Positions 876 through 62,785 of a DNA stretch of 64,000 nucleotides are shown here, piece by piece. Position 1 is the stretch's first letter, and every line of letters starts with the position of its first letter. The translations under genes and the position numbers were made by a program. Origin of the DNA: Comamonadaceae bacterium (lineage in GTDB: Bacteria; Pseudomonadota; Gammaproteobacteria; Burkholderiales; Burkholderiaceae_C); contig CANEXF010000001.1 of assembly GCA_947443645.1 (NCBI GenBank), positions 62,001-126,000 on the forward strand, given 5' to 3'. Below the pieces are notes generated by a model, which was not told the DNA's origin, made no database searches, and saw nothing but the letters and a program-made list of their open reading frames with translations.

Positions 876-1977
876 TGTGACCGTCGAGCTCAAGCGCCAG
901 CAATTGGGCTTGCAGCTGCGCGGTGGCCAGACCGGTTCGGGCTTGCAGCGCGTCCAGACTGACCACGTCAAAGCCCAGCGCTGACAGCAAGGCCGCGTCG
1001 GCCGCGACCTCTTTGCCCTCGCTTCCGTTCGTGTTTTCCGCCGTTTGGCGCCATGGGAGTTTCAGCTCTTCCAGCACGTCCTGCGCGGTTTCAACCAGTT
1101 TGGCGCCTTGTTTGATCAGCGCATGGCAGCCGCGTGATTGCGGCGAGTGAATTGAGCCCGGTATCGCAAACACTTCCTTGCCCTGTTCGGCCGCAAGTCG
1201 CGCAGTGATCAGCGAGCCCGACTGGAGCGCGGCCTCCACCACCAGAATGCCTTGCGACAGACCTGAAATGATCCGGTTGCGCCTCGGGAAATTGGCCGTC
1301 AGCGGCGGCGTTCCCAGCGGGAATTCGCTGATCAGCATGCCTTGCTGGGCAATGCGGTGCGCCAGCGCCAGATGTTTTTTGGGATAGACCCGGTCCAGAC
1401 CCGTGCCGACCACTGCAATGGTGTCGCCGCCGCCCAGCATGGCGCCATCGTGCGCCGCGCCATCTATGCCCAGCGCCAGACCCGAAACAATGCACAGGCC
1501 GGATTCGCCAAAGCACCGTGCAAATTGCCTGGCGTTGACTTCACCTTGTGGCGTCGGGTTGCGGCTGCCGACGATGGCGAGCTGCGGTGCGGGTATTTCC
1601 GTGCCAGTCGATGCTACGGTTTTAATAGCTGCTTGCGCACGTACAGCAAGCGTTCCCATCATATAAAGCATCAAAGGTGGATCTTCGATGTCAAGCAGTG
1701 CCGGCGGATAGCCGGTATCGCCCAGTGTGACGATTTGCCGCTGCTCGCCGCTGGCCAGCCAGTCCAGCGTGGTTTGCAACTGGTCCGCCAGGGCGGGCGG
1801 CGCCTGAAGCAGCTTACGGCTGAGATGCTCTGAAGTGACCTGGCGCAGTGCCAGCTCGCTCTGCTCGAAAACGGCTTGCGCCGAGCCGAATGCAGCCAGC
1901 AGCCGGCGCGCGCTGTCGTTGCCCACGCCTGGCGTGAGCGTCAGTCGCAGCCAGGCATTGAGTTCATCGCGCTCCAC
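829..1977 (-). CDS. dprA: DNA-processing protein DprA/Smf
   Basis: DprA binds incoming single-stranded DNA during transformation and loads RecA. The 382-residue protein has an N-terminal helical region, then the Rossmann-like DprA core starting at LAIVGSRNPT (about 133-142), with SGLALGIDGAAH and NFPRRNRIISGLS further on, and a C-terminal winged-helix-like region. The start is GTG at 1977-1975. Residues about 112-130, just before the core, are extra relative to the family as I recall it and coincide with an R1 repeat (peptide RAQAAIKTVAS). The gene lies 63 bases downstream of the LysM gene on the same strand, probably in one operon, and its end overlaps the convergent oxidoreductase gene by 47 bases. 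Confidence 0.93.
   Translation of the reverse strand: MERDELNAWLRLTLTPGVGNDSARRLLAAFGSAQAVFEQSELALRQVTSEHLSRKLLQAPPALADQLQTTLDWLASGEQRQIVTLGDTGYPPALLDIEDPPLMLYMMGTLAVRAQAAIKTVASTGTEIPAPQLAIVGSRNPTPQGEVNARQFARCFGESGLCIVSGLALGIDGAAHDGAMLGGGDTIAVVGTGLDRVYPKKHLALAHRIAQQGMLISEFPLGTPPLTANFPRRNRIISGLSQGILVVEAALQSGSLITARLAAEQGKEVFAIPGSIHSPQSRGCHALIKQGAKLVETAQDVLEELKLPWRQTAENTNGSEGKEVAADAALLSALGFDVVSLDALQARTGLATAQLQAQLLALELDGHISRLPGGLFQRLAHA
1613..1651 (+). repeat. R1 mini-palindrome inside dprA
   Basis: The + strand reads GCTACGGTTTTAATAGC followed by TGCTTGCGCACG, then an inverted AGCAAGCG arm. Read on the coding (minus) strand it gives RAQAAIKTVA, nearly the same peptide as the R1 copies in purK and proA. 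Confidence 0.75.
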
Positions 1978-2040
1978 GCTTGCGCCGCCTGGTGTGCTTG
2001 AGTTGAGTCTAAGCTGTCGCCAGCGTTGATCGCGCGGGTT

Positions 2041-3258
2041 TTAGTTGGGGTTGACGAAGCGGTCGCCAACCTTCACGCCGTCGGTGATTTGCAGCACCAG
2101 CGCGTACGACAGTTGATCGAAGGTGCGAAACACCATCAGCAGACCGTTGCGTTCGTTGGGCAGCTTGATCTGGGCGCGGCCGGAGTCGGTTTTGTCCTGC
2201 AAGCGCTCGCCGTCTTTCAAAACGGCCATCACGTGGCCGCGTTCCAGGCCGTCCCGGCTGCCCCGGTTCACCACAACCACCTGGTTTTCTGCCGCATAGG
2301 TCACCGCGCTGCCATAGACGGACACAATCTGTCCGGAAATCTGGCTGACAGGCGCGTGTGGAACGTAGCTTTGCGATGTCCGTGGCGGTTCGGCTATCAG
2401 GCGGTCGCCAACGCGCATTTCTTCTTTTGCCGCCACGATGTCTATGGTGGCCGGCACCAGCTCGGTTTTGGTGCTGCCGCTCTTGTCGGTGACCAGCTGG
2501 CTTGATTCGCCGCGAACCAGTTCGGCTTTGCCGACGAACTGGGCTTCATAGCCCAGGATGGCGCCCGTGGTGGGGTCTTTCAGTGGCGTGGCGTTGCGAA
2601 AGACCCGGAAGTCCCGGACTTCGCCCTTGGCATCGCTCAAGGCCTTGCCAGCGCTTGCGCCCGCAGATTCGCCGCGTGCATAGGCGCGGTCGCCGCGGCT
2701 GAGCAGCACGCGGCCCTCCTGGGTCGCCACAATGCGGGGTGAATTCGCAAAGCTGGCGGCATCGACGATCATGGGCTCGGCCAGAAAGGGCTCAATCAGG
2801 TTGGCGGCCAGCGTCGGAATCGACGCATCGGCGAGCGATTCATAGCGCGTGCGTGGCGACAACCTGATGCTATCTGCGCCAGCGTCGCCGGCACTGGCTT
2901 CGCGCGTGCGCAGGACGGCGCGGCCGCTGGATTTGTCGAGGTAGAGCTGCTGACCGGGGTAGATGCGGTGCGGGTTATGAATATCCTGCAGGTTCATGCC
3001 CCACAGTTCTGGCCAGCGCCAGGGACTTTTTAGAAATAGACCGGAAATGGACCATAAGGTGTCGCCGCGCTTGACGTTGTAACTGTCTGGGGCGTTGGGC
3101 GCAAGGTCGGCAAGCGGAATGCCCGTTTGCGCCACCTGAACGGCCGTGGCCTTTTGGTCTGCGGTGATGGGGAAGCTCTGTGCATGCAAGCCAAAGGTCG
3201 CACCCAGAAGGGTCAGGGCTATTGAAATACGGCTGAAATGACCAGAAATAATTTGCAT
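2041..3258 (-). CDS. LysM peptidoglycan-binding domain protein, secreted
   Basis: The 405-residue protein has a probable signal peptide (about 1-26, ending GLHA before QSF). A LysM domain spans about 60-107, with YNVKRGDTLWSIS, NPHRIYPGQQLYL and tryptophan-rich WRWPELWGMN between. LysM binds glycan chains of peptidoglycan, so the protein should act in the periplasm. The remaining 300 residues are mostly beta-strand-like with no motif I recognise. It is divergent from def across a 187-base spacer and followed by dprA, the usual Burkholderiales order. The enzymatic role, if any, is unknown. Confidence 0.88.
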   Translation of the reverse strand: MQIISGHFSRISIALTLLGATFGLHAQSFPITADQKATAVQVAQTGIPLADLAPNAPDSYNVKRGDTLWSISGLFLKSPWRWPELWGMNLQDIHNPHRIYPGQQLYLDKSSGRAVLRTREASAGDAGADSIRLSPRTRYESLADASIPTLAANLIEPFLAEPMIVDAASFANSPRIVATQEGRVLLSRGDRAYARGESAGASAGKALSDAKGEVRDFRVFRNATPLKDPTTGAILGYEAQFVGKAELVRGESSQLVTDKSGSTKTELVPATIDIVAAKEEMRVGDRLIAEPPRTSQSYVPHAPVSQISGQIVSVYGSAVTYAAENQVVVVNRGSRDGLERGHVMAVLKDGERLQDKTDSGRAQIKLPNERNGLLMVFRTFDQLSYALVLQITDGVKVGDRFVNPN

Positions 3259-3445
3259 CTTGTGGGCCTGTTGAGCAAGCTTGAGCCGGATCCCTGATGG
3301 GTCAGGGCCAGCTTTTATCTTGATAAATCACTGACGATTCTGTACTTAAGCCCTTGATTAAGCAACGAAATGGCCGTCCGACAAGCCCTCGAATCTGTAA
3401 TAGTCGGCAAAATTTGCGAAAATAGAGACATCTGATTGAGCACCT

Positions 3446-3949: not shown

Positions 3950-3955
3950 ACCTCG

Positions 3956-4933: not shown

Positions 4934-4945
4934 GGCCCCACCCTG

Positions 4946-6045: not shown

Positions 6046-6046
6046 C

Positions 6047-6123: not shown

Positions 6124-7317
6124 ATGGAATTCATCCGCTTTTCAGATCTGTGCGCCCGTGGTCAGGTCGCTGGCCAGCGCGTCTTCATTCGCGCAGACCT
6201 GAACGTGCCGCTGGGCGCTGACGGCAACATCACGGAAGACACCCGTATTCGCGCCTCGATTCCCTGCATACAGATGGCGCTCGATGCCGGCGCTGCCGTG
6301 ATGGTCACCTCACACCTGGGGCGTCCGACCGAGGGTGAATTCAAGCCTGCGGACTCCCTGGCGAATGTGGCGAAACGCCTCGGTGAACTTATGCAGCGCG
6401 ACATTCCCTTGCTGTCCAACTGGGTCGACGGCGTGGACGTCAAGCCGGGCCTGGTGGTGCTGCTTGAAAACTGCCGCCTCAACCCGGGTGAGAAAAAAAA
6501 CAGCGAGACCCTGGCGCGCAAGCTGGCGGCGCTCTGCGACATTTTTGTACATGATGCTTTCGGCACCGCACACCGCGCTGAAGCGTCAACCTATGGCATT
6601 GCGCAGTACGCCAAGGTCGCCAGCGCCGGGCCGCTGCTGGCCGCCGAGATGGATGCCATAGCCAAGGCGCTCAGCAACCCGCGCCGGCCCCTGGTCGCCA
6701 TCGTGGCCGGCAGCAAGGTGTCGACCAAGCTCACCATCCTGAAGGCGCTGGCCAGCAATGTGGACCAGCTGATCGTGGGCGGTGGCATTGCCAACACCTT
6801 CATGCTGGCGGCGGGTTTGAACATTGGCAAAAGCCTGGCAGAAGCTGATCTCTTGCCTGCGGCCAGGGCCGTGATCGAGGCCATGAAGGCGCGCGGCGCA
6901 GCCGTACCGATCCCAACCGATGTGGTCACCGCCAAGACATTTGCCGCCGATGCCGTCGCGACCATCAAGGCGGCGACCGAGGTGGCTGACGATGACCTGA
7001 TTCTGGACATCGGCCCGGACACTACAGCCAGGCTGGCCGCCCAGCTGATGTCGGCCGGCACCATTGTCTGGAACGGCCCGGTCGGCGTGTTTGAGTTCGA
7101 GGCTTTCTCGCACGGCACCGAAGGCATTGCCCGCGCGATTGCCGCGAGCAGCGCTTTTTCCATTGCCGGCGGTGGCGACACGCTGGCAGCGATTGCCAAG
7201 TACGGCATCGAAAAACAGGTGGACTACATCTCCACCGGCGGCGGCGCGTTTCTTGAAGTGCTTGAAGGCAAAACCTTGCCGGCGTTTGAAATACTGCAAA
7301 AGCGGGCTGTAGGCTAA
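6124..7317 (+). CDS. pgk: Phosphoglycerate kinase
   Basis: Pgk transfers phosphate from 1,3-bisphosphoglycerate to ADP in glycolysis and runs in reverse in gluconeogenesis. The 397-residue protein is full length. It has RADLNVPL (substrate loop), SHLGRPT, an [12 protein letters not shown] loop, [10 protein letters not shown], and C-terminal GGGDTLAAI with STGGGAFLE for nucleotide. Its own promoter region lies upstream and an R1 hairpin with a T run follows, so it appears to be a single transcription unit at the head of a glycolysis and purine cluster. Confidence 0.98.
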
Positions 7318-7330
7318 GGTCCGAGCGCTC

Positions 7331-7386
7331 TGTTTTCAATAGCTGCTCGCGCCCGCTTTTAGGGCGCCAGCAGCTTTTTTTATTTA
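7331..7386 (+). terminator. R1 repeat acting as pgk terminator
   Basis: AGCTGCTCGCGCCC (7341-7354) pairs with GGGCGCCAGCAGCT (7362-7375) with only one mismatch and a 7-base loop. A run of T starts at 7375. It is both an R1 copy and a good rho-independent terminator 24 bases after the pgk stop. Confidence 0.8.
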
Positions 7387-7494
7387 TAAATTCCACCCTG
7401 GACCGGTTCGCCCGAGCGGGCCTGACCATGACCTGGATCAAGGTGCGCGCCGCGACCAGCCGATAAGCTCCAAGCTATCTTTTGGAGAATCTGC

Positions 7495-11858: not shown

Positions 11859-11860
11859 GG

Positions 11861-12757
11861 TCAGCTCAATATCACGCTGCTGAGCCGGCGGCGGTAGGTC
11901 GCGACGGTTGGGTCATCTGGTGGAATCTGGCCGTCCGCCACCTTGGGCTTGGGCACCTCGATGATGTCCAGAATGGCGATATAGGTTTTGCGCGCCAGGT
12001 CTTCTTTCCAGGTTTTGTCGCGCATCAGGATATCGAGCAACTCGTCGAGCGCGTCGGTCCAGCGCTGCTGCGCCATCAGCCAGCGGGCCTTGTCAAAGCG
12101 CGCTTCAAAATCCCGCTTGTTGACTGTAATTTTTGCGTCAAACTGGGCTCCAGCATCTGCTGCGCTTGCGCTGATAGCTACAAAATCAATAGCATTCATC
12201 CAGCGTTGCAGTGAATCAAAGCGGCGCACCGCAGCGGTTTGTGCAATCACGGGCGCAAACGCCACCTTGGCGTCGTCGTCCTGGCCGCGTTGCAGCAGCA
12301 GCTTGACGTAGTCAAAACGCGCATTGTCATTGCCTGGCTCGGCGGCCAGCGTCTGCTTGAGTTCTTCCAACTGCGCCTCGGGGTCGACCTCGGCCGCGAG
12401 TGCTGGCGCTTCTTCTTCGGGCAGGTCCTCGGCCGGCGGCAGGTGTTTGTCTAGAAATTCCTTGACCTTGCCCTCGGGCAGCGCGCCCGAAAAGCCGTCC
12501 ACGGGCTTGCCGTCCATCATCAGGATACAGGTCGGAATGCTGCGAATGCCGAAGGCTGCGCCCAGCTGCTGCTCCTGGTCGGAATCAATCTTGACGAGTT
12601 TGAAACGGCCGGCGTAGTCGGCTTCGACTTTCTCCAGAATCGGGCCCAGCGACTTGCACGGGCCGCACCAGGGCGCCCAGAAGTCGATCAGCACCGGAAT
12701 GTTCATGGAAGCGGCAATCACTTCCTGTTCAAAGTTGGCAACGGTAACGTCAATCAT
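11861..12757 (-). CDS. ybbN: Thioredoxin-TPR co-chaperone (YbbN/CnoX type)
   Basis: The N-terminal thioredoxin domain (about 1-110) has DFWAPWCGPCKSLGP with an active Cys31-Gly-Pro-Cys34 pair and the cis-proline stretch IRSIPTC. It is followed by an acidic linker (about 113-130) and a C-terminal TPR-like helical region with LKQTLAAEPGNDNARFD. The 298-residue layout matches YbbN/CnoX, a holdase linked to chaperonins and protection under oxidative stress. Unlike E. coli YbbN (by recall), the CxxC is intact, so oxidoreductase activity is plausible. An R1 copy lies inside at residues about 187-200 (NAIDFVAISASAADA). Confidence 0.9.
   Translation of the reverse strand: MIDVTVANFEQEVIAASMNIPVLIDFWAPWCGPCKSLGPILEKVEADYAGRFKLVKIDSDQEQQLGAAFGIRSIPTCILMMDGKPVDGFSGALPEGKVKEFLDKHLPPAEDLPEEEAPALAAEVDPEAQLEELKQTLAAEPGNDNARFDYVKLLLQRGQDDDAKVAFAPVIAQTAAVRRFDSLQRWMNAIDFVAISASAADAGAQFDAKITVNKRDFEARFDKARWLMAQQRWTDALDELLDILMRDKTWKEDLARKTYIAILDIIEVPKPKVADGQIPPDDPTVATYRRRLSSVILS
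12158..12197 (-). repeat. R1 mini-repeat inside ybbN
   Basis: On the coding strand the sequence is GCTATTGATTTTGTAGC followed by TATCAGCGCAAGCGC. It matches the left arm of R1 in the UDG-like gene, in the same reading frame (AIDFVA versus AIDSVA). Confidence 0.65.
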
Positions 12758-12893: not shown

Positions 12894-13415
12894 ATGACAA
12901 CAAGCAACAATCCATCCCGCCCCGCGAGTCAAGCCATCGTCGGCGTGGTGATGGGCTCCAGCAGCGACTGGGAAACCATGCAGCACGCGGTGCAGATACT
13001 GCAGCAGTTCGGCGTGCCGCACGAAGCCAGTGTGGTGTCTGCGCACCGTATGCCCGATGAGCTGTTTGCCTATGCCGAGCAGGCCCTGGGGCGCGGCCTG
13101 CAGGCCATCATTGCGGGCGCGGGCGGCGCGGCGCATTTGCCGGGCATGCTGGCGGCCAAAACCACTGTTCCGGTGCTGGGCGTGCCGGTGGCGAGCAAGC
13201 ATTTGCAAGGCGTGGATTCGCTGCACAGCATTGTGCAAATGCCCAAGGGCGTGCCGGTCGCGACCTTTGCCATTGGCAACGCTGGCGCTGCCAACGCGGC
13301 ACTGTTCGCGGTGGCCATGCTGGCGCTGCACGACCAGGCGCTGGCCGCCAAGCTGCAGGCTTTCCGGCTTGAGCAGACCGCCGCTGCGCGCGCCATGACC
13401 TTGCCGCCAGCATGA
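12894..13415 (+). CDS. purE: N5-carboxyaminoimidazole ribonucleotide mutase
   Basis: PurE converts N5-CAIR to CAIR in purine synthesis. The 173-residue protein shows [10 protein letters not shown] (20-29), SAHRMPDEL (49-57, active-site His51) and [16 protein letters not shown]. It starts at ATG 12894. The TGA overlaps the purK ATG by 4 bases, so the PurE and PurK subunits are made together. A TAAAAT box at 12835-12840 is a candidate -10. Confidence 0.97.
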
Positions 13416-14674
13416 GCCAGCCTGCTGCATCTCCAGCGCTTCCGGCCGGACTACCGGTTTTTCCTGGCAGCCTCTCGGCTTCGGGCCAGCCGGCCACCTT
13501 GGGCGTGATGGGCGGCGGCCAGCTGGGCCGCATGTTTGTGCATGCCGCGCAGCGTCTGGGTTACTTCACCGCAGTGCTGGATCCGGATCCACAAAGCCCG
13601 GCCGGCCAGGTCAGCCACCACCATGTGCAGACCGCTTATGGCGATCAGCAGGGCTTGTCGCAACTCGCCGCGCTGTGCGCCGCCATCACCACCGAATTTG
13701 AAAACGTGCCGGCCGATGCGCTGCAAACACTTGGCCTGAGCCGGCCGGTCGCGCCTGGTGCGGCCGCCGTGGCGATTGCGCAAGACCGGATTCTTGAGAA
13801 GGCCCGCCTGAGCGCCTGCGCCGCGCTGTCCGGCGTGCACTGCGCGCCTTATGCGGTGATTGAAAGCGCAGCGCAGCTGCAGGCCGTGGCGCCTGACTTG
13901 CTGCCCGGCATTTTGAAAACCGCGCGCATGGGTTACGACGGCAAGGGCCAGGTGCGCGTCGGCAATGCCGCCGAACTTGCGGCGGCCTGGGCTGAACTGA
14001 AGGGCGTGCCTTGCGTGCTTGAAAAGCGCATGCCGCTGAAGTCCGAGTGCTCGGTGATTGTTGCGCGCGGATGGAGCGGCGAAGTCGTGAGCTTTGCGCC
14101 GCAGCGCAATGTGCATGTTGACGGGATTCTCGCCGTCACCCACGCCTATGAAGGAAATGTACCTGCAGCGCTTGCAGCGCGGGCGCAAGCAGCTACTGAA
14201 TCAATAGCAAGCCAGATTCGTTACGTGGGCGTGCTGTGCGTTGAGTTTTTTGTCGTCGATGACGGCAGCGCGCAGGGCGGCCTGATCGTCAATGAGATCG
14301 CGCCACGCCCGCACAACAGCGGCCACTACACCGTGGACGCCTGCGACGTCTCGCAGTTTGACCTGCAAGTGCATGCGATGGCCGGCCTGAGTCTGCCGCG
14401 GCCGCGCCAGCATTCGCCGGCCATCATGCTCAACTTGCTGGGCGAGGTCTGGTTTGACGCCCAGGGACAGGCGCGCACACCCGACTGGCAGGCGGTGCTG
14501 GCCTTGCCCGGCACGCGGCTGCACCTGTATGGAAAGCTCGAAGCGCGCGCCGGCCGCAAGATGGGCCATATCAACATCACCGGCAGCGCGCTGGCCGGCC
14601 CTGCTGGCGTGCTGGCCACGGCCAGGCGGGTCGCCGATATCCTGGGTTTGCCGGGACTGGACGCGCTGTCATGA
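13412..14674 (+). CDS. purK: N5-carboxyaminoimidazole ribonucleotide synthase
   Basis: PurK is an ATP-grasp enzyme that carboxylates AIR using bicarbonate and ATP. The 420-residue protein has about 30 extra N-terminal residues before the core [12 protein letters not shown] (31-42). ATP-grasp motifs follow: [40 protein letters not shown]. An R1 copy occupies residues about 256-268 ([11 protein letters not shown]), just before [12 protein letters not shown], without disrupting the frame. It is coupled by 4-base overlaps to purE upstream and sua5 downstream. Confidence 0.96.
14171..14211 (-). repeat. R1 mini-repeat inside purK
   Basis: The minus strand reads GCTATTGATTCAGTAGC followed by TGCTTGCGCCCGC, the clearest full-length R1 core in the window. 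On the purK strand it encodes [10 protein letters not shown]. Confidence 0.8.
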
Positions 14675-22242: not shown

Positions 22243-22536
22243 TTACATTTGTGCCTTGCGGCCATAGCGCAACTTCATCAGCAAAATGGCCAGCGCCAGG
22301 GCCAGTGTGACGGCATTGGCGATCACCACCGGCCAGGCCTGTAGCAGCCAACCATAAGCCAGCCAACATGCCACACCAGTCGTGAACACGCTGTACATGC
22401 CCAGCGACACGCCGCTGACATCGCGGGTCCGAAAGCTCAACCAGGCCTGAGGCAAAAAGGCGGAGGTGGTCAGACAGGCCGCCAGCGTGCCGACCACATC
22501 AGTGGGCGTCCAGCCCCATTGGCTTAACCAGTTCAT
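22243..22536 (-). CDS. SemiSWEET/PQ-loop small sugar transporter
   Basis: The 97-residue membrane protein has three predicted helices and the PQ-loop signature TSAFLPQAWLSFRTRDVSGVS. This is the SemiSWEET type, which dimerises to move sugars such as glucose or sucrose across the inner membrane. Its ATG overlaps the dacB stop by 4 bases (ATGA), so it is translated with that gene. The pairing with a peptidoglycan enzyme is unexplained. Confidence 0.85.
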   Translation of the reverse strand: MNWLSQWGWTPTDVVGTLAACLTTSAFLPQAWLSFRTRDVSGVSLGMYSVFTTGVACWLAYGWLLQAWPVVIANAVTLALALAILLMKLRYGRKAQM

Positions 22537-24074: not shown

Positions 24075-24161
24075 GGCCTGATTATCGGTGCAGCCCGGCG
24101 CCACTGGCTGGATAATCGGGCTCTCAGGCCGGTCTGCGCGGCGGCTCGCCCGGGCATACGC

Positions 24162-24216
24162 GCTATTTATTTAATAGCTACTTGCGCCCGTATCCATTGA
24201 CTTTTGGCCTTATTTG
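24162..24216 (+). repeat. R1 mini-repeat upstream of tsaB
   Basis: GCTATTTATTTAATAGC is followed by TACTTGCGCCCGT and a T-rich right arm. It fills most of the space between the divergent dacB and tsaB starts and therefore overlaps any promoter of either gene. Confidence 0.75.
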
Positions 24217-24227
24217 TACTTAAAAAA

Positions 24228-25019
24228 ATGAAATTTCTGGCGTTTGACACCAGCACCGATGTGATGTCGATTGCCCTGACCGACGGCGCCAGCGTGTGGC
24301 AGCACAGCGGGCCAGGCGGCGCCAAGTCGTCAGCGACCTTGATCCCGGCGATCCTGGACTTGCTGGCCCAGGCACAGCTGACGCTGGGCGCGCTCGACGC
24401 GATTGTCTTTGGTCGCGGGCCGGGCTCTTTCACGGGCCTGCGCACCGCTTGCGCCGTGGCCCAGGGTCTGGCGCTGGGCGCCAATCATGGCGCGGGCGTG
24501 GCGGTGCTGCCGCTGGACACCCTGATGGCCGTGGCTGAAGAGGCGCGCTATCAGCGTGCCCAGGCCGGCGGCGCGCCTGTGCTTGAAGTCACGGCGCTGC
24601 TCGATGCGCGCATGGACGAGATGTATGTGCAGCGCTTTCAATTCAGCGACGGCCCTGATGGGTCGGTCTGCACTGCGCAGGGCGAGTGCACGCTGATCCG
24701 GCCCGAAAACCTGCGGCCCGAGCAGGCCAGCGGTTTGCTGGCCGGCAATGTCTTTGGCGTTTATGCCGACCGGCTGCGGCCCGAGCTGTTGAGCGCTGGC
24801 CGTATTGCGCTGGCGCTGCCCACGGCGACGGCCATGCTGCGTCTGGCGCCGCAGCTGGCGGCCAGCGGGCATTGTGTGGACGCAGGACAGGCGCTGCCGC
24901 TCTATGTCAGGGACAAGGTCGCCTTCACGACCGAAGAGCGGGCGCTGGCCAAGGCGCAAAATATCAAAGATGCCGAAGACGCCATCCGGGCGCAAGCTCT
25001 GCTCGCCGGCCCGAATTGA
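24228..25019 (+). CDS. tsaB: tRNA threonylcarbamoyladenosine biosynthesis protein TsaB
   Basis: TsaB is the TsaD partner that scaffolds transfer of threonylcarbamoyl to A37 of tRNAs. The 263-residue protein begins MKFLAFDTSTDVMSIAL (ASKHA fold) and has GRGPGSFTGLR (62-72), the strongest family signature. ATG 24228 is preferred over upstream codons because the family begins exactly here. It is followed 13 bases later by rimI, the usual proteobacterial pair. Confidence 0.94.
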   Translation: MKFLAFDTSTDVMSIALTDGASVWQHSGPGGAKSSATLIPAILDLLAQAQLTLGALDAIVFGRGPGSFTGLRTACAVAQGLALGANHGAGVAVLPLDTLMAVAEEARYQRAQAGGAPVLEVTALLDARMDEMYVQRFQFSDGPDGSVCTAQGECTLIRPENLRPEQASGLLAGNVFGVYADRLRPELLSAGRIALALPTATAMLRLAPQLAASGHCVDAGQALPLYVRDKVAFTTEERALAKAQNIKDAEDAIRAQALLAGPN

Positions 25020-25542: not shown

Positions 25543-26324
25543 GCCTGGACCTCGACAAGCGCCAGCGCGCCATGCTGCGCGAAATGGGTGTGCGGGTCTG
25601 GCAACCGATGGCCGCGCCTGCAAGCGTGGCGACGCCATCAGCTTTGGCCGCCGCACCCTTGCCTGAGCCGGCCGAGCCAGTCGCAAGGCCGCAAGCCGGT
25701 CATACGCTGGTCGCTATTGATTCTGTAGCTGCTGACGCCCGTCAATCAATCGTTGCAAGCACTTTTCAGTCAAGGCCTGCGGTTTTGGCACAGGCCGAGA
25801 GCCAGTCCGAAGGCGCGACTGCAGGCTGGAGCATGGGCCAGGCCCAGGCGCTTTACGGCGATGCACCTGCGGGCGGCGCGCGCTGGCTGGTGCTGGCAGA
25901 AATGCCTGCCGCCGCGTTCAATGGGCAGGACTTCAATCCTTTTGAGGGCGACGCCGGCAAGCTGCTGGACAACATGCTGCGCGCGACGCGTCTGCACCAG
26001 GCCGGCGTGGTGATGCTCGCACCGCTGCTGCGGCGCATCGGCGCGGATGCATCTGCAGCGCCCAGCCTGGCCGCCGAGCTGACGGCGGTGCTGGCCGTGG
26101 CGCGCCCCGACATCGTGCTGATCATGGGCCGCATGGCGGCGCAGGCTTTGTTGCAGTCGAGCGAAGCCTTTGGCAAGCTGCGCGGCCAGGTGCACCAGCT
26201 GCAGGGCATACGCGCGATTGCCACGCACGACGCGGCCTACCTGCTGCGCACGCCGCTGGACAAGGCCAAGGCCTGGGACGATTTGTGCCTGGCCATGAGC
26301 GTGGCTGCAGCGCCCGCCAGCTAA
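25539..26324 (+). CDS. Uracil-DNA-glycosylase-fold protein with degenerate motifs
   Basis: The 261-residue protein follows rimI where Burkholderiales usually carry a uracil-DNA glycosylase-family gene. Residues about 115-255 follow the family layout: [12 protein letters not shown] where GEAPG is normal, [15 protein letters not shown] (133-147) matching the PF-G-AG-LL loop, RPDIVLIMG, and [10 protein letters not shown] where HPSYLLR is normal. Only one Cys is present, near the C-terminus, so the four-Cys iron-sulfur cluster of family 4 is absent. Activity is doubtful. Residues 20-110 are a low-complexity Ala/Pro linker containing an R1 copy. Confidence 0.75.
25713..25770 (+). repeat. R1 mini-repeat inside the UDG-like gene
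   Basis: GCTATTGATTCTGTAGC is followed by TGCTGACGCCCGT and a right arm ending in ACTTTT. It is translated in frame as [10 protein letters not shown] (59-68) within the linker of the protein. Confidence 0.8.
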
Positions 26325-28657: not shown

Positions 28658-28677
28658 GATGTACTCCGAATTGACTT

Positions 28678-28733
28678 GCTATGCTAATAATAGCTGCCAG
28701 CGCTCGTCCTGATTGCGTTGGCGGCTATTTTTT
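28678..28733 (+). repeat. R1 mini-repeat between the thioesterase gene and uvrA
   Basis: GCTATGCTAATAATAGC, then TGCCAGCGCTCGT, then an inverted GCGTTGGCGGCTATT arm and six T. The T run is on the + strand although both flanking genes run leftward, so it is poorly placed to end uvrA transcription. Confidence 0.75.
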
Positions 28734-28734
28734 C

Positions 28735-31700
28735 TCACAACAGGCGTTTGAGGTAGCGACCGGTGTGGCTGTCGGGGTTGTCGGCAATGTCTTCCGGCGT
28801 GCCCACGCCGACCACGGTGCCGCCACCGGCACCGCCTTCGGGGCCCATGTCAATCAACCAGTCGGCGGTCTTGATCACGTCCAGGTTGTGCTCGATCACG
28901 ACGATGGTGTTGCCCGCGTCGCGCAGCTGGTGCAAGACCCTGAGCAGCAGATCAATGTCGGCAAAGTGCAGGCCGGTGGTTGGCTCATCCAGAATGTAGA
29001 GCGTGCGGCCGGTGTCGCGTTTGGACAGCTCCAGCGCGAGCTTGACGCGCTGCGCCTCGCCGCCCGACAGCGTGGTCGCGGCCTGACCCAGCTTGACGTA
29101 GGACAGGCCCACGTCCAGCAGCGTGTGCAGCTTGCGCGCAATTGTCGGCACGGCCTTGAAGAACTCGGACGCGGCCTCGACCGTGAGGTCCAGAATCTGG
29201 GCGATGTTTTTGCCCTTGTACTGCACTTCCAGGGTTTCTCGGTTGTAGCGCATGCCTTTGCAGACATCACAGGGCACGTAGACGTCGGGCAAAAAGTGCA
29301 TCTCGACTTTCACCATGCCGTCGCCCTGGCAGGCTTCGCAGCGGCCACCGGCGACGTTGAAGCTGAAACGGCCCGAACCGTAGCCGCGCTCGCGCGCGGT
29401 GTTCATCTCGGCCAGCAGCTCGCGAATCGGCGTGAACAGGCCGGTATAAGTGGCGGGGTTGCTGCGCGGCGTGCGGCCAATGGGCGACTGGTCAACATTG
29501 ATGACCTTGTCGAAGTGCTCTATGCCTTCTATGCTTTCGTGTGCCGCAGGCTCTTCGTGTGAGCGGTAAAGCGTGCGCGCCACGGCCGCGTAAAGCGTGT
29601 CGTTGACCAGCGTCGACTTGCCTGAACCCGACACGCCCGTGACGCAGGTCAGCAGGCCGACCGGAAACTCCACGCTCACGCCCTTGAGGTTGTGACCGGT
29701 GGCATTGATCACGCGCAGCGCCTGCATGTCGCCCAGCGTGGCCTGGTGCACCGCTTCGCGCTCGGCGCGCCGCGTGGCGGCCGGACTGGGCGGAAAGCGC
29801 GACGGCTTTTTGCCGGCAAACGCATCGACGCTCTTGACGGTGGGCAGCCAGGCGGTGCGTTTGGCGGGCACCGCAATTTTCAGCGTGCCGGCGAGGTATT
29901 TGCCCGTCAGTGAGGCCGGGTTGGCCTTGACTTGCTCGTAACTGCCCTGGGCCATCACCCGGCCGCCATGCACGCCGGCGCCCGGCCCCATGTCGATCAC
30001 ATGGTCGGCCGCGCGAATCATGTCTTCGTCGTGCTCGACCACCAGCACGCTGTTGCCGATGTCACGCAAATGCTTGAGCGTGTCGATCAGGCGGTCGTTG
30101 TCGCGCTGGTGCAGGCCAATGCTGGGCTCGTCGAGCACATACATCACGCCGGTCAGGCCAGAGCCGATCTGCGAGGCCAGCCGGATGCGCTGCGATTCAC
30201 CGCCGGACAGTGTCTCGGCGCTGCGGTCCAGGCTCAGGTAATTCAGCCCGACGTCGTTGAGGAACTTCAGGCGCAGCCCGATCTCGCGCACCACCTTGTC
30301 GGCAATCTCGGCCTTGGCGCCCTGCATTTTCAGATGGCTGAAATAGGCAAAACTCTCGCGCAGCGTGTCATGGCTGATCTCGAAGATCGCCTTGCGCGCG
30401 CGCGGCGCGCCGGCCTCTTCGCTGTCAGGCGCGCTGACCAGATAGACATGGCGCGCTTCACGCCGCAGCCGGGTGCCGCCGCAATCGGGGCAGGGCTGCA
30501 CGCTGCGGTAACGCGCGAGCTCTTCGCGCACGGCGGTCGAATCGGTTTCCTTGTAGCGACGCTCGAAGTTGGTGATCACGCCTTCAAACGGGTGCTTCTT
30601 GCTGACTTTTTTACCGGCCGTGCTGCCGGAATCCATCACGTAGCTGAACTTGATGTCTTCCTCGCCCGAGCCATGCAGCACGACTTGTTGCACGCTGGCC
30701 GGCAGGTTTTCAAAGGCCGTGTCGATGTCAAACTGGTAGTGTTTGGCCAGGCTTTCGAGCATCGAGAAATAGTAGGCATTGCGCCTGTCCCAGCCCTTGA
30801 CGGCGCCGCTGGCCAGGCTCAGCGAGGGGAAGGCCACGATGCGTGTGGGATCGAAAAATTCCTTGTGCCCCAGGCCATCGCAGCCCGGGCAGGCGCCCAC
30901 GGGCGAGTTGAAGGAGAAAAGCCGCGGCTCCATCTCGCTGAGCGAGTAGCTGCAGACCGGGCAGGAAAACTTGGCGCTGAACAGATGCTCCTTGCCGCTG
31001 TCCATTTCGAGTGCGATGGCCTTGCTGTCGGCCAGGCGCAGCGCGGCTTCGAAACTTTCGGCCAGGCGCTGGCGCATGTTGTCAAAATCCGTTCGGGCGG
31101 TGCTTGGAGACGCCTCCGATAGCTCTTCGGCAAGCTCGGCGTGTGTGGGTGCGCGGCGCACCTTGATGCGGTCAATCACCACATCAATGTCGTGCTTCTC
31201 GGTTTTCTTGAGTTTTGGCAGGGCATCGAACTCGTAGGCCTGGCCGTCGACGCGAAAGCGCACATAGCCCTGGGCCTGCATTTCGGAAAACACATCGACA
31301 AACTCGCCTTTGCGTTCGCGCGCCACGGGCGCCAGAATCATCAGCTTGGTGTCTTCGGGCAGCGCCAGCACGCTGTCGACCATTTCGCTGACGCTTTGCG
31401 CCTGCAGCGGCAAATCATGCTCGGGGCAAAACGGCGTGCCGGCGCGCGCAAACAAAAGCCGCAGGTAGTCGTGGATCTCGGTGACCGTGCCGACGGTGGA
31501 GCGCGGGTTGTGGCTGGTGGCTTTTTGTTCTATGGAAATGGCTGGCGACAGGCCTTCGATCATGTCCACATCGGGCTTGTCCATCAGCTGCAGAAACTGC
31601 CGTGCGTAGGTGGACAGGCTTTCCACGTAACGGCGCTGGCCTTCGGCGTACAGCGTGTCAAAGGCGAGCGACGACTTGCCCGAGCCGCTCAGGCCGGTGA

Positions 31701-47470: not shown

Positions 47471-47889
47471 ATATCTGAGAAGTGGTGCGACCGTCCTTCT
47501 GGGCGGCCGTTCTTAGCCAAGCTCAGGACCAACGGACCGTAGTTGTCGACGATTGGGCCTGGCTGCGGTATTCGTCATGCAGGAGCCGCGGGACTGGCTA
47601 AGCCAGACCGCAGGCGCAGCGGCCCCCTCGGGGGGCAGGGCGCTAAGTGAAGCGAGTAACCGTGGTGGGAGGGGCTCTTCCCAATGCAAGCAGGAGCCGC
47701 GGGACTGGCTAAGCCAGACCGCAGGCGCAGCGGCCCCCTAGTGGGGCAGGGCGCTAAGTGAAGCGAGTAACCGTGGTGGGGGGGCTCTTCCCAATGCAAG
47801 CAGGTGCCGCGGGACTGGCTAAGCCAGACCGCAGGCGCAGCGGCCCCCTAGTGGGGCAGGGCGCTACGCGCAGCGAGCAACCGTGGGGG
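47423..47889. repeat. Gene-free 467-base stretch filled with repeats
   Basis: The gap between convergent mtnN and corA holds the tail of an R1 copy, an R3-like palindrome (about 47491-47540, CCAAGCTCAGGACCAACGG) and an R2 array. R2 units begin at 47581, 47692 and 47802 (periods 111 and 110), the third incomplete and ending at the corA stop. Unit landmarks are GGGACTGGCTAAGCCAGACC, GCAGGCGCAGCGGCCCCCT and AAGCGAGTAACCGTGG. Open frames across it only translate the repeat. Confidence 0.85.
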
Positions 47890-54163: not shown

Positions 54164-54349
54164 TAGTGAAAAGCGTGGGGGCCACGGGCCGCAGTGTCGG
54201 GCCGCCCCAAGCAAGGCCAGCCCCCTCGGGGGGCAGCGCATTACACGCAGTGAAAAGCGTGGGGGCCATTTTCCGCCGGGCCGCCCCAAGGAAAATGACA
54301 ACCCCCTCGGGGGGCAGCGCATTACACGCAGTGAAGAGCGTGGGGGCCT
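54164..54349 (+). repeat. R2 tandem array between exbB and exbD
   Basis: GTGAAAAGCGTGGGGGCC occurs at 54166 and 54250, and GTGAAGAGCGTGGGGGCC at 54330 (periods 84 and 80). CCCCCTCGGGGGGCAGCGCA and TTACACGCA come before the second and third. The last unit ends directly before the exbD ATG. Confidence 0.9.
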
Positions 54350-54778: not shown

Positions 54779-54905
54779 AATCGCGCCACACCATCATTTT
54801 GAATATTCGGGGAAAGTGACGGGGCGACCCTGACTTCTCCTGTAGTTTTAACCGCCCGAAAGTATCGTGCGATCCCGCCAAGCCAAACTCCCGGGCGCCA
54901 GTTCC

Positions 54906-57635
54906 ATGCAAGACAAATACAACCACCTCGACATTGAGCGCGCTGCGCAAACCCACTGGACTGCGCTGGATGCTTACCGCGTTCACGATCACGCAGACCC
55001 CAAAAAGCCGCTGGGCAAGTACTACGCCTGCTCCATGCTGCCTTACCCCAGCGGCAAGCTGCACATGGGTCATGTGCGCAACTACACCATCAACGACATG
55101 CTCACGCGCTACCTGCGCATGAAGGGCTACAACGTGCTCATGCCTATGGGCTGGGATGCGTTTGGTTTGCCGGCTGAAAACGCCGCGATGAAAAACGGCG
55201 TGCCGCCGGCCAAGTGGACCTACGACAACATTGCTTACATGAAAAAGCAGATGCAGGGACTGGGTCTGGCGATTGACTGGAGCCGCGAGGTCGCGACCTG
55301 TGACCCGAGCTACTACAAGTGGAACCAGTGGCTGTTCCTGAAGATGCTGGAAAAAGGCATTGCCTACCGCAAGACCCAGGTCGTGAACTGGGATCCGGTC
55401 GACCAGACCGTGCTGGCCAACGAACAGGTGATTGACGGCAAGGGTTGGCGCACCGGCGCGACGGTTGAAAAGCGCGAGATTCCAGGCTACTACCTGAAGA
55501 TCACGGACTACGCTGAAGAGCTGCTGGACAGCGTGAGCCACAAGCTGCCCGGCTGGCCAGAGCGCGTCAAGCTGATGCAGGAAAACTGGATTGGCAAAAG
55601 CGAAGGTGTACGTTTTGCGTTCACGCACGAGATCCATAACAACGCGGGCGCGCTGATTGGCGATGGCCGCATGTATGTGTTCACGACGCGCGCCGACACC
55701 ATCATGGGTGTGACCTTTTGCGCAGTGGCGCCCGAGCATCCGCTGGCCCTGCATGCCGCGCTATCGAATCCAAAACTTGCCGCCTTTATCGAAGAGTGCA
55801 AATCCGGCGGAACCACCGAAGCCGAGCTGGCCACGCAGGAGAAAAAGGGCCAGCCCACCGGCCTGTTTGTCACGCACCCGCTGACGGGCGACAAGCTTGA
55901 AGTCTGGGTCGGCAACTACGTGCTCATGAGCTATGGCGACGGCGCGGTCATGGGTGTGCCGGCGCACGACGAGCGGGATTTCGAGTTCGCAAAAAAATAT
56001 GCCCTGCCCATCAAGCAGGTCACTGGCGTCGAATGCCAGACCTACAGCCTCGACGCCTGGGCCGACTGGTATGGCGACAAGCAGCGCGGCGTTGCGATCC
56101 ATTCCGGCAAGTACGATGGTCTGGCTTTCAAGGCGGCGGTTGATGCTGTCGCCGCTGACCTGGCGGCCCTCGGCCTGGGTGAGAAAAAAACCACCTGGCG
56201 TCTGCGTGACTGGGGTGTGAGCCGCCAGCGCTACTGGGGCACGCCCATACCCATCATCCACTGCGAGGAGCACGGCGCCGTGCCGGTGCCAGAAAAAGAC
56301 CTGCCCGTGGTCCTGCCGCAGGACTGCGTGCCTGATGGCTCAGGCAACCCGCTGGCCAAGCATGTCGGTTTCCATGCCGGCGTGGTGTGCCCGGTGTGCG
56401 GCAAGGCGGCGCGCCGCGAGACTGACACCATGGACACCTTTGTCGACTCGTCCTGGTACTACATGCGCTACTGTGATCCCAAGAACGATCAGGCCATGGT
56501 GGGCGAAGGCGCGGCTTACTGGATGCCCATGGACCAGTACATAGGCGGCATCGAACACGCCATCCTGCACCTGCTGTATGCGCGCTTCTGGACCAAGGTG
56601 ATGCGTGATCTGGACCTCGTCAAGGTGGACGAACCCTTCACCAAGCTGCTGACGCAAGGCATGGTGCTCAACCACATCTACTCACGCAAGGGTGACAAGG
56701 GCGGCATGGAGTATTTCTGGCCGAGTGAAGTCGAGGACATCCGTGACGCGTCGGGCAAGGTGACGACTGCCAGGCGCAAGACCGACGGGCTGATCGTGAA
56801 CTACGAAGGCGTGGGCACCATGAGCAAGAGCAAGAACAATGGCGTGGACCCGCAGGATCTGATTGAAAAATATGGCGCTGACACCGCCCGGCTCTACACC
56901 ATGTTCACCGCGCCGCCCGAGGCCACGCTGGAATGGAACGATGCCGGCGTCGAGGGTTCCTACCGCTTTCTGCGCCGCGTCTGGAACTTCGGCAGCAAGC
57001 TCGGTACTATGAATTCAGGAGCTGCTGGCGCCCTTCAGTCGGCCGCGCAAGCCGGTTTTGACAAGGAAACCAAAGCCTTGCGGCTGGAAGTGCACAGCGT
57101 TCTCAAGCAGGTGGACTATGACTACCAGCGCATGCAGTACAACACCGTGGTTTCGGGCGGCATGAAGCTGCTCAACGCCCTGGAAGATATCGCCCCCACG
57201 CTTGTCACCGCGTGTACTGCGCTGCCCACCGAGGGGGCCGCTGCGCCTGCGGACCGGCAAAGCCAGACCCGCGGGGCCGGCTTGCTGGGCGCAGCGAATG
57301 AAGGTTTTAGCATCCTGCTGCGCTGCATCTATCCTGCGACGCCGCATCTGGCCTACGCGCTGTGGAGCGAGCTGGGCTATGCGGTCGAACACGGTGCGCT
57401 GCTCGACGCGGCCTGGCCTGAAGTTGACGCCAGCGCCTTGCAGCAAGACGAGGTGGAGCTGATGCTGCAAATCAATGGCAAGCTGCGCGGCTCGGTGACG
57501 GTCAGCGCAACGGCCGACAAGGCTGCGATCGAGGCGGCCGCGCTGGCCAGCGAGGCCTTTATCAAACAGGCCGCGGGCGCACCAGCGAAAAAAGTCATCG
57601 TGGTGCCTGGCCGCCTAGTCAATATCGTTGTCTGA
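54906..57635 (+). CDS. leuS: Leucyl-tRNA synthetase with two repeat-derived insertions
   Basis: LeuRS charges tRNA(Leu) and edits errors. The 909-residue protein has the HIGH-type [15 protein letters not shown], the CP1 editing domain (about 225-430, [12 protein letters not shown]), zinc-like CPVCGKAA and KMSKS-type [10 protein letters not shown]. It is some 30-50 residues longer than relatives as I recall them. Two extra stretches coincide with repeats: residues about 700-711 (R1, [10 protein letters not shown]) and about 763-800 (R2, [16 protein letters not shown] onward). Both lie in the C-terminal anticodon-binding region. The frame is intact. I use ATG 54906; GTG 54867 is less likely. 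Confidence 0.96.
57006..57035 (+). repeat. R1 mini-repeat inside leuS
   Basis: ACTATGAATTCAGGAGC is followed by TGCTGGCGCCCT. It aligns codon for codon with the R1 copy in the UDG-like gene ([10 protein letters not shown] versus [10 protein letters not shown]). Confidence 0.6.
57191..57281 (-). repeat. R2 repeat inside leuS
   Basis: On the + strand CGCCCCCACGCTTGTCACCG, CGTGTACTGCGCTGCCCACC, GAGGGGGCCGCTGCGCCTGC and GGCAAAGCCAGACC match the inverted R2 unit of the intergenic arrays. It is translated in frame. Confidence 0.85.
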
Positions 57636-58238: not shown

Positions 58239-59366
58239 ATGAATCTGGCGCCCGGCCAACTCGCCGACCACCTCGCGCGCGGGCTTAAAAGCCTGTACAC
58301 GCTGCACGGTGATGAGCCCTTGCTGGTGCAGGAGTTTGCTGACGCCTTGCGCTCGGCGGCCAGGCTGCAGGGCTACACCGAGCGCACCGTGCACACAGTG
58401 GCCGGCGCGCATTTTGACTGGAGCGAGGTGCTGGCCAGTGGTGGCTCGTTGAGCTTGTTTGCTGACAAGCAGATTGTCGAAATCCGCATTCCCAGCGGCA
58501 AACCGGGCAAGGACGGCTCGCAGGCGCTGCAGCACATTGCAGAACGCGCCCAGGGTGACGATGCCACGCTCACACTGGTGATTTTGCCCAGGCTGGACAG
58601 CATGACCGCCAAGGGCGCCTGGTTTGGCGCGCTCGACAGTTTTGGCGTGACCGTCAAGTTCGAGCCGGTTGACCGCCGCAATCTGCCGCAGTGGATCTCG
58701 CAGCGCCTGCAGCTGCAGGGCCAGCGCGTGGCCGCCGGCGAGGAAGGCCAGCGCACGCTGCAGTTTTTCTCGGACCGGGTGGAAGGCAACTTGCTCGCTG
58801 CACATCAGGAAATTCAAAAGCTCGCCTTGCTTTATCCGGCGAAAACCCAGGCTGGCCCGGACGGTAGCGCGCATGACGGGGTACTGAGTTTTGAGCAGGT
58901 TGAAAATGCTGTGCTCAATGTCGCGCGCTACGACGTGTTCAAGTTGTCTGAAGCGGTGCTGGGCGGGCAGGCGGTGCGCGTGGCGCGCATGCTCGATGGC
59001 TTGCAGTCCGAGGGCGAGTCCGAGGTGCTGGTGCACTGGGCGCTGGCCGAAGACATACGCAGCTTGAAACGCGTCAAGGACGCGATAGCCGCCGGCCGGC
59101 CCATGCCCATGGCGCTGCGCGAAAACCGGGTCTGGGGCGTCAAGGAAAAACTCTTCGAGCGCGTGCTGCCGCAAATGGGTGACACCAGCCTGGCCAACCT
59201 GCTGCACGCCGCGCACAAGGTCGACGGCATCGTCAAGGGCTTGAAGCAACCCGACTGGCCCGCCAATAGCTGGCAAGCGCTGCACCGCCTCGCAGGCATG
59301 GTCTGTGAGCAGTGCGCCGCGCCGGGCCGCCCCAAGCCAGTACAGCTCCCGCGGGGGGCAGCGTGA
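58239..59366 (+). CDS. holA: DNA polymerase III subunit delta
   Basis: The delta subunit opens the beta clamp in the clamp loader. The 375-residue protein has the N-terminal LYTLHGDEPLLVQEFADALR, DKQIVEIRIPSGKPGKDG, LPRLDSMTAKGAW and C-terminal domain LSEAVLGGQAVRVARMLDGL. The final 16 or so residues (CAAPGRPKPVQLPRGAA) and the TGA are encoded by an R2 unit, so the natural C-terminus has been replaced or extended. ATG 58239 lies 61 bases after lptE. Confidence 0.94.
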   Translation: MNLAPGQLADHLARGLKSLYTLHGDEPLLVQEFADALRSAARLQGYTERTVHTVAGAHFDWSEVLASGGSLSLFADKQIVEIRIPSGKPGKDGSQALQHIAERAQGDDATLTLVILPRLDSMTAKGAWFGALDSFGVTVKFEPVDRRNLPQWISQRLQLQGQRVAAGEEGQRTLQFFSDRVEGNLLAAHQEIQKLALLYPAKTQAGPDGSAHDGVLSFEQVENAVLNVARYDVFKLSEAVLGGQAVRVARMLDGLQSEGESEVLVHWALAEDIRSLKRVKDAIAAGRPMPMALRENRVWGVKEKLFERVLPQMGDTSLANLLHAAHKVDGIVKGLKQPDWPANSWQALHRLAGMVCEQCAAPGRPKPVQLPRGAA

Positions 59367-59480
59367 TACACGCTGTGATGAGCGTGGGGGCGATCGAACG
59401 CAGCGAAGGGCCGCCCCGAGCAAGTTCAGCCCCCTCGGGGGGCAGCGCAGTACGCGAAGCGACAAGCGTGGGGGCCACTT
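59324..59480 (+). repeat. R2 tandem pair at the holA/acyltransferase junction
   Basis: GGGCCGCCCC begins two units at 59324 and 59408 (period 84, equal to the exbB-exbD array). Each has a GGGGGGCAGCG core and a GCGTGGGGGC end. The first unit supplies the end of holA; the second runs into the start of the acyltransferase. Confidence 0.9.
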
Positions 59481-61453: not shown

Positions 61454-61498
61454 CATGCTCGGCAAACAGCGCTATCGCCGGCGCAATTTAGGACCTCA

Positions 61499-62785
61499 AT
61501 GACCAGTGTTTCCAATCTCATGCACCGCCTTGGCGCCAATGCAAAAGTGGCTTCTGCACTTATGGCGCGGGCGTCAGCAGCTATCAAAAACAAAGCACTT
61601 TTGAGTCTTGCTGCCTTGCTGCGCAGCAGTGTTGCAGACCTGCAGCTGGAAAACGCCAAAGATCTTGAGCGGGCGGCTGTGGCCGGTCTGGCGGGCCCTT
61701 TGCTCGACAGGCTCAAGCTCAGCCCCAAAGACATTGAAACCGTGGCGCTGGGCTGCGAGCAGCTGGCCGCCATGCCCGACGTGATTGGTGAAATCACAGG
61801 CATGAAAGAGCAGCCCAGCGGCATACGCGTGGGCCAGATGCGTGTGCCGATTGGCGTGTTCGGCATGATTTACGAGAGCCGGCCCAATGTCACGATTGAA
61901 GCCGCGTCGCTGGCCATCAAGAGCGGCAATGCCTGCATATTGCGCGGCGGCTCCGAGGCGATCGAGTCCAACAAGGCGCTGGCCGCGCTGGTCCAGCAGG
62001 CGCTGCTTGACGCTGGCTTGCCGGCTGACGCCGTGCAGCTGGTGCCGACCACAGACCGGGCGGCCGTTGGCGAGTTGATCGCCATGCCGCAGTATGTCGA
62101 TGTGATCATTCCGCGCGGTGGCAAGGGACTGATTGAGCGCATCAGCCGAGAAGCCAAGGTGCCGGTCATCAAGCATCTCGATGGCAACTGCCATGTGTAC
62201 GTTGACGATCCCTGCGACATTGCCATGGCCGTGACCCTGGCCGACAACGCCAAAACACAAAAATACAGCCCCTGCAATGCCACCGAGGGCTTGCTGGTGG
62301 CGCGCGGCGTGGCAGCAGAGTTTCTCCCCAGAATCGGTGCCATTTTTGCTGAAAAAGGCGTGGAAATGCGCTGCGATGAGGCCGCAGGGGCCATACTGCG
62401 GGCGCAGCCAGCTATAAATTCTGTAGCAACAATTGTTCCGGCCACCGAGCAGGACTGGTACGAGGAATACCTGGCGCCCATCATCAGCATCAAGCTGGTC
62501 GAGGGGCTGGACGAAGCGATTGCGCACATCAATCAGTACTCCAGCCACCACACCGACGCCATCGTCACGCGCGACCACATGCACGCCCAGCGCTTTTTAC
62601 GCGAGGTTGATTCGGCAAGCGTTATGGTGAATGCGAGCACTCGCTTCGCAGATGGTTTTGAATTTGGTCTGGGGGCTGAAATCGGCATCAGTACCGACAA
62701 GTTCCACGCCCGGGGCCCGGTCGGCATAGAAGGCTTGACCTCCTTGAAGTACGTTGTGCTGGGCCAGGGTGAAGTGCGCAGCTGA
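61499..62785 (+). CDS. proA: Gamma-glutamyl phosphate reductase
   Basis: ProA reduces glutamyl phosphate to the semialdehyde in proline synthesis. The 428-residue protein has [29 protein letters not shown] in pieces, [12 protein letters not shown], the catalytic Cys in [14 protein letters not shown], and [10 protein letters not shown]. Two stretches match R1: residues about 23-33 ([10 protein letters not shown]), where relatives have a similar sequence anyway, and about 301-310 ([10 protein letters not shown]). The start is ATG 61499. proB is not in the window. Confidence 0.96.
61565..61604 (-). repeat. R1-like sequence near the proA start
   Basis: The minus strand reads GTGCTTTGTTTTTGATAGC followed by TGCTGACGCCCGC. 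It shares 15 consecutive bases with the copy in the UDG-like gene. Confidence 0.55.
62399..62428 (-). repeat. R1 mini-repeat inside proA
   Basis: The minus strand reads GCTACAGAATTTATAGC followed by TGGCTGCGCCCGC. On the proA strand it encodes [10 protein letters not shown], matching the peptides in dprA and purK. Confidence 0.7.

Follow-up and report, generated by a model that had tools for sequence, protein, structure and literature searches.

The 64-kb window analysed here (64,000 nucleotides of GenBank assembly GCA_947443645.1, contig CANEXF010000001.1, positions 62,001 to 126,000) contains twelve copies of a dispersed palindromic motif, located both between genes and inside housekeeping genes such as purK, ybbN and proA (Table 1). 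In the initial annotation of this DNA the motif was tentatively read as a short mobile or copy-spreading element that inserts in frame into genes. All twelve listed places bear it: a 41-column profile made from the window copies, two of which (7331 and 12158, numbered by their listed cores) were out of register, scores them at 22.5-44.0 bits, against at most 17.8 bits in 20 dinucleotide shuffles of the window. Leave-one-out profiles give 19.7-36.5 bits for 10 of the 12 copies, the run being uninformative for the misregistered 7331 and 12158; a full-length covariance model, itself built from the 12, scores these two at 60.0 and 54.5 bits. The core as first described is present but too short, the motif spanning about 64 nt (model columns 10-72). 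Seven copies lie within genes, as proposed, whereas of the five called intergenic only three are so by our open reading frame (ORF) calls. The other two (27226 and 47416) reach into pyrF and the MTA/SAH nucleosidase gene at their 3' ends, and since they include the stop codons, the C-terminal residues of both products are probably shaped by the motif. The host names dprA, thioredoxin (ybbN), purK, leuS and proA stand, all above curated NCBIfam cut-offs, but the UDG-like protein matches family-4 UDG only below the cut-off. No Rfam family matched the window at gathering scores, and no prior description of the motif was found in the literature searched, literal motif strings included; the two papers that such strings matched deal with other subjects, judging by title and opening of the abstract. 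The closest LeuS among the best 80 named relatives belongs to a Polaromonas metagenome-assembled genome (82% identity), and the source genome appears to be Polaromonas-like, within the family Comamonadaceae.

Table 1. Copies of the motif in the 64-kb window, with window positions and covariance-model scores.
Feature	Position	Strand	Details
Copy inside dprA (829-1977, -)	1603..1683	+	antisense frame RAQAAIKTVA; 57.1 bits; exceeds 300 codon-resampled versions
Intergenic copy, about 10 nt past ORF 6124-7317	7317..7397	+	60.0 bits
Copy inside thioredoxin-like ybbN gene (11861-12757, -)	12123..12203	-	sense frame AIDFVA; 54.5 bits; no gap in same-genus alignments
Copy inside purK (13412-14674, +)	14138..14218	-	antisense frame; ungapped overlay; 64.9 bits; top score among the 150 genome copies listed
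Intergenic copy between ORFs 22533-24104 (-) and 24204-25019 (+)	24152..24232	+	57.3 bits
Copy in linker of UDG-like gene (25539-26324, +)	25703..25783	+	62.2 bits; linker length and sequence vary in relatives
Copy at 3' end of pyrF (26386-27237), spans stop codon	27216..27296	+	48.3 bits
Intergenic copy between ORFs 28208-28657 (-) and 28735-31932 (-)	28668..28748	+	59.3 bits
Copy at 3' end of MTA/SAH nucleosidase gene (46685-47422), spans stop codon	47406..47486	+	61.9 bits
Copy in variable-length linker of leuS (54867-57635)	56996..57076	+	51.4 bits
First copy in proA (61499-62785)	61526..61606	-	antisense frame; overlay on conserved N-terminal residues; 55.0 bits
Second copy in proA, loop of variable length	62357..62437	-	48.0 bits; 5' half 39.3 bits, 3' half -5.2 bits

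The profile scan of the genome suggested in the initial annotation, run with the covariance model from the 12 copies, places the motif at 150 sites or more. Counts were taken from a 464-kb sample (the window and another 20 stretches, each 20 kb long), in which 67 of 75 listed matches were analysed and eight dropped (weak, E > 0.01, or reverse-strand echoes). By home-made gene calls, which missed some ORFs, 35 of these copies lie inside genes, 27 between genes and 5 at gene edges, at a density of about one per 7 kb (mean 2.70 and variance 1.80 per 20 kb). Hosts above the curated NCBIfam cut-off include DprA, PurK, LeuS, ProA, thioredoxin, HrpA, HisD, NadE, CoaBC, PurD, MetG and GcvP; UDG, RarA, UvrD, NuoF and RsmB fall below it and are named only as "like". 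The consensus of the 61 full-length copies, TGCTAt..aTTtaATAGCTGCTtGCGCCCGtc...cggGCGcTacAGgCataTTT, comprises two dyads about 23 bp apart, GCTAT-N7-ATAGC and GCGC-CCG/TTG ... CGG/CAA-GCGC, followed by a T-rich tail, and the AGC of the first dyad is invariant among them. Its information content amounts to 50.5 bits (columns 10-72), against 13.8 bits implied by the site density. The 5' half is discrete with few intermediates, as 65 of the 75 sites above 14 bits in the sample exceed 24 bits, while the reversed 464 kb contain no 5' half above 14 bits (the profile being made from the copies). GC content is 37-63% in the 75 listed matches, which included no visible tandem array.

Inside the GC-rich host genes, the motif is kept in codons that end in A or T. 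When codons were resampled with the peptide fixed, 34 of the 35 in-gene copies scored above all 300 draws, the exception (L113_4504) extending beyond the gene end. Fourfold-degenerate third positions are A or T in 205 of 333 cases (62%) inside copies and in 1308 of 6681 (20%) elsewhere in the same genes, a contrast free of taxon choice, with copies found by the motif. Between taxa picked by motif score, the A/T fractions are 65% in 19 motif-bearing taxa versus 9% in 9 lacking it at purK, 81% (16 taxa) versus 7% (8) at ybbN, and 58% (6) versus 13% (41) at the first proA site; at leuS, where a like contrast is seen between the inside and the outside of the motif, the fraction is 67% inside it in 11 bearing taxa, the 65 taxa lacking it having no comparable columns. 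The claim that the motif is read in only two peptide senses inside genes fits 31 of the 35 copies (12 in the same and 19 in the opposite orientation to the gene), the other four (two in each orientation) using other frames. That it was selected to be codable did not hold up: each used frame is open in 6 of the 23 full-length intergenic copies, a number that some unused frames equal or exceed (another forward frame is open in 11 of 23), so that stops alone do not explain the frame choice. Probably the Ala-rich peptides of the two used frames account for it.

In-frame insertion was found at some sites (5 of 23 hosts, a loop in a gene of stretch L117, and the second proA site) but does not hold generally. 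At purK, ybbN, the first proA site, purD, coaBC and the rsmB-like gene, motif-free genomes encode homologous residues with unrelated codons and without a gap, an outcome that the initial annotation had itself listed as speaking against insertion. Judged from these alignments, insertion appears to account for only a minority of the copies. For purK, the motif region is gapless in the 27 same-genus orthologues shown (own included), row 28 being a paralogue. With a profile made solely from 28 intergenic or gene-edge copies, which was used for purK and ybbN, the purK site scores 29.7-60.7 bits in 19 of 20 same-genus genomes with at least 24 copies (own included; the exception is G144, at -3.1), and none of the eight genomes with 0-3 copies carries the motif there (-20.5 to -32.8 bits, with homologous peptides in GC-rich codons); G131 (truncated hit), G126 (paralogue only) and G128 (no hit) were left out of this count. 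The same pattern is seen for ybbN across the genus. At the first proA site none of 48 relatives has a gap; the motif is present in 6 of them, 41 have scores below zero, and the remaining one fits neither group. Outside the window, 28 hosts were aligned to the motif-free genome G132, which scores -18.7 to -44.4 bits at the sites long enough to score: 23 alignments span the motif, two do not, and three hosts had no hit. Of those spanning, 18 show 0-4 gapped residues (7 are gapless); the number of overlays among the 18 is soft, as several have low local identity and three of the seven gapless ones use an unusual frame (home-made gene calls). The N-terminus of proA was considered as the source of the repeat, since in several named relatives its DNA fits the motif over the full length; this idea was dropped, though not disproved, in view of the equivalent overlays in purK, ybbN and others.

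At other sites lengths do differ. In the metG linker the motif is an in-frame insert. The 382-aa protein encoded at L117:8151-9299 was found in 15 of 30 genus genomes, with the motif loop present or absent among them: the long loop scores 26.9-49.4 bits in G000 (the source genome), G133, G125, G136, G123, G145 and one G131 gene, and 8.9 in G099, whereas G144 (149 copies), G134 (63 copies), a second G131 gene and five copy-free genomes have the short loop. G131 thus has two matches to this protein (L255 and L262/L266), one with the motif loop and one with the short loop. The second proA loop of the source genome exceeds that of 27 of 48 relatives by 4 residues and that of 9 of them by 9; it is in turn exceeded by 10, 11 and 14 residues in L017, L011 and L027, with the motif in L017 and L027. 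In relative L006 this loop has a VRSEPVEG-type peptide, presumably encoded by a different repeat dispersed in these bacteria, so that the loop may accept different repeats. The leuS linker varies by -9 to +10 residues in 80 relatives; the 11 named relatives that bear the motif all have a linker 4 residues longer than own, and so do 14 of the 69 others (range -9 to +10), for which reason leuS was dropped as a clean insertion.

The copies themselves show no clear trace of recent copying: the top pairwise identity among the 61 copies is 0.719, against maxima of 0.672-0.781 (mean 0.716) when the columns were permuted 200 times. The motif differs in dialect between two genera. The 30 best copies of G072 mostly read GCGCTTG...CAAGCGC and those of the source genome mostly GCGCCCG...CGGGCGC, so that both arms differ; the G072 copies were found by the model of the source dialect, and the search was thus biased against detecting a dialect. 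Within genomes, none of 12 stem pairs covaries beyond permutation (61 own and 30 G072 copies), several pairs being nearly invariant and so uninformative. An RNA hairpin or a single-stranded DNA structure as the main constraint is not supported, because copies occur on both gene strands and the stem pairs show no covariation.

Matches at E 1e-4 or better occur in 41 of 120 sampled Comamonadaceae genomes (own included). Within the genus, 23 of 30 genomes have matches, three of them only 1-3 copies, and seven have none. In a midpoint-rooted tree of PurK and YbbN (27 rows, motif columns removed), six genomes with 0-1 copies form one clade, with a support of 100 in the Shimodaira-Hasegawa-like approximate likelihood ratio test (SH-aLRT); as the root is a midpoint, gain and loss of the motif at the deep split are both possible. 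Genome G122 (3 copies; listed with 6% contamination) lies apart from this clade as the sister of the copy-rich G143 (SH-aLRT 100). Nested among motif-rich genomes, it keeps a homologous PurK peptide, and the locus GC of the two is alike (0.665 and 0.650).

A neutral relic of insertion fails on the silent-site maintenance, the overlay and the dialects, and a function in RNA fails on the occurrence of copies on both strands; the motif is therefore very probably one that is recognized in DNA. The reading we favor, at a rough probability of 0.45 on sequence comparisons, is that a recognition motif of about 64 bp, rather than a free mobile palindrome, has been maintained and multiplied in many Comamonadaceae genomes by drive or by selection on the DNA sequence, and serves as a signal for the uptake of self-DNA. 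A protein would read the motif during the DNA uptake step of natural transformation, fragments bearing it would be preferentially taken up and recombined, and this recombination would fix motif-bearing alleles where the host protein tolerates them. We rank uptake first among the possible readers because the coding overlay, the over-strong consensus and the uneven distribution resemble the uptake signal sequences (USS) of Pasteurellaceae and the DNA uptake sequences (DUS) of Neisseriaceae, and because sequence-biased transformation is reported in Comamonadaceae: excerpts of PMC4212676 report it for Verminephrobacter eiseniae, with the motif unnamed, and describe transformants of Acidovorax temperans only with same-species DNA. 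The competence genes seen, in a search aimed at ComEC only, are ComEC (PF03772) in the source genome and dprA in the window.

Several observations weigh against an uptake signal. Dyads are more typical of a dimeric cytoplasmic DNA-binding protein. ComEC is present in 71 of 77 genomes (own included), copy-rich and copy-free alike, and is thus uninformative as a discriminator of copy-rich genomes. In five of the 23 spanning hosts the source protein has 9-22 extra residues, split over one to three pieces that lie at the motif or no more than 8 residues from it. Pairwise identities among the 61 copies have a variance (0.00378) slightly above that in all 200 permutations (at most 0.00373), hence a possible faint substructure, as copying would leave. 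Regular spacing is not supported, the gaps in G072 having a coefficient of variation of 0.88 against 0.87-1.14 for random placement. Nor is the motif clearly confined to core genes: two of the 20 stretches are copy-free, one of which (L126) includes the core gene for dihydroorotase, and the 5' core occurs in 33 viral-classified IMG/VR stretches (L269-L301), compared with 6 that match the pattern reversed, 30 of the 33 scoring above 20 on the full profile, where phage genes and host flanks are both possible. Given these two findings, a core-only distribution is not established. Finally, at about 64 bp the motif is several times longer than the known uptake cores, for which PMC4212676 gives 9-11 bp.

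As a separate observation, a copy of the motif lies within the ComEC match in the source genome (G000:C2:154092-154172) and in G143 (G143:C9:1287349-1287429), and the ComEC matches differ in length among genomes.

The main rival reader is a cytoplasmic dimeric protein, favored by the dyads and the length. It would bind both dyads of a chromosome-organizing or regulatory site at hundreds of places, and selection would keep the sites, those in genes included. The 23-bp spacing of the dyads, the invariant AGC and the copies on both strands of genes suit such a site, as does the fact that no two of the 150 top G072 copies lie closer than 1165 bp; so does the second dyad, whose arms differ in step between two genera, single copies showing no compensation. 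We nevertheless consider it unlikely, as 50.5 bits where 13.8 are needed is far above the needs of a site evolved by point mutation, intermediates are few and real insertions exist, and a search limited to PF01797 and PF03772 yielded no candidate protein.

Somewhat more doubtful is a small mobile or copy-spreading palindrome, akin to the Rickettsia palindromic elements (RPE), miniature inverted-repeat transposable elements or repetitive extragenic palindromic (REP) elements, that inserted in frame, overwrote codons by recombination and left copies that are now old. It would explain the insertions of 9-22 residues, the presence or absence of the L117 loop across the genus, the extended second proA loops, the discreteness of the copies and the slight excess of variance. 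Yet the most alike copies are no closer than permuted columns, A/T third positions persist where gene composition should erase a neutral relic, and conserved proteins carry ungapped overlays. Of 77 genomes, 67 have a match to the Y1 transposase family PF01797, copy-free ones among them, and the 3.3 kb around the one Y1 transposase gene of the source genome (L131) contain no copy; a link to REP-associated tyrosine transposases (RAYT) is not supported. That the in-gene copies are chance look-alikes, Ala-rich helices in GC-rich genes resembling a few real intergenic repeats, has next to no probability: they do favor two Ala-rich frames, but the codon resampling and the reversed sample both contradict it.

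Returning to the uptake signal, its fullest form is more tentative than the reading itself: the motif could be the first DNA tag for self-recognition in the Comamonadaceae, a signal of about 64 bp with two dyads and genus dialects, for which codons would have been rewritten in some hundreds of genes (extrapolated) and in-frame loops seeded. If so, sequence-selective uptake, which is well established in Neisseriaceae and Pasteurellaceae according to excerpts of PMC4212676, would extend to environmental bacteria with a much longer motif, and the motif could fill in the sequence that is missing for the biased transformation described in an earthworm symbiont belonging to the Comamonadaceae. Selfish drive versus selected self-recognition would become testable in this family, where a DNA-level constraint is seen to reshape the codons and loops of housekeeping proteins, and the pair of copy-rich G143 and copy-poor G122 lends itself to a search for the protein reading the motif.

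The window also contains a direct repeat of 300 nt (19553-19852 and 20586-20885; 74% identity, spacing 1033 nt), which may reflect a pair of adjacent paralogous genes or domains.

Among known systems, RPE are present in frame inside housekeeping genes with a preferred reading frame, and the motif shares both properties. Unlike RPE, it leaves no gap at several conserved hosts, its DNA is maintained at silent sites, and its copies have little or no similarity beyond the shared profile. Like the REP elements associated with RAYT transposases it is short, palindromic and dispersed; REP elements are mostly extragenic, in contrast to the 35 of 67 copies inside genes here (home-made gene calls), and the motif differs further in that stem pairs do not covary copy by copy, no copy lies near the Y1 transposase gene, and PF01797 is also found in copy-free genomes. 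The beta-proteobacterial repeat element (BRE), in the portions of PMC3110155 available, is a short repeat of Polaromonas and Bordetella that sometimes lies inside coding sequence, as the motif partly does. In Bordetella, BRE has 63.7-78.9% GC and is often tandem (PMC3110155), unlike the listed motif matches with their lower GC and no tandem copies, a comparison by description only. A second, GC-rich and partly tandem repeat family (AGCCCCCTCGGGGGGCAGCGC...GCGTGGGGGCC) was seen in the window at 47557-47887, 54213-54348, 57192-57238 and 59338-59476, and fits the prose description of BRE in the same excerpts, by description and not by letters.

Compared with USS and DUS, whose core is about 10 nt, the motif is far longer, with two dyads, and it differs in its density of about one copy per 7 kb, in the insertions of 9-22 residues in five of 23 compared hosts, and in that the uptake role is putative here. 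For the known uptake sequences, excerpts of PMC1626085 describe numerous copies within coding DNA, orthologues with few gaps (24% of USS alignments gapped) and an anomalously strong consensus, those of PMC2397512 an origin of USS/DUS by recombination, and those of PMC3630211 dialects of DUS. The motif resembles them in its many copies in both orientations, about half of them in coding DNA, apparently in the scarcity or absence of gaps when most conserved proteins are aligned to motif-free orthologues, in its unusually strong consensus with few near-misses, and, as in DUS (PMC3630211, in part), in its dialects between genera.

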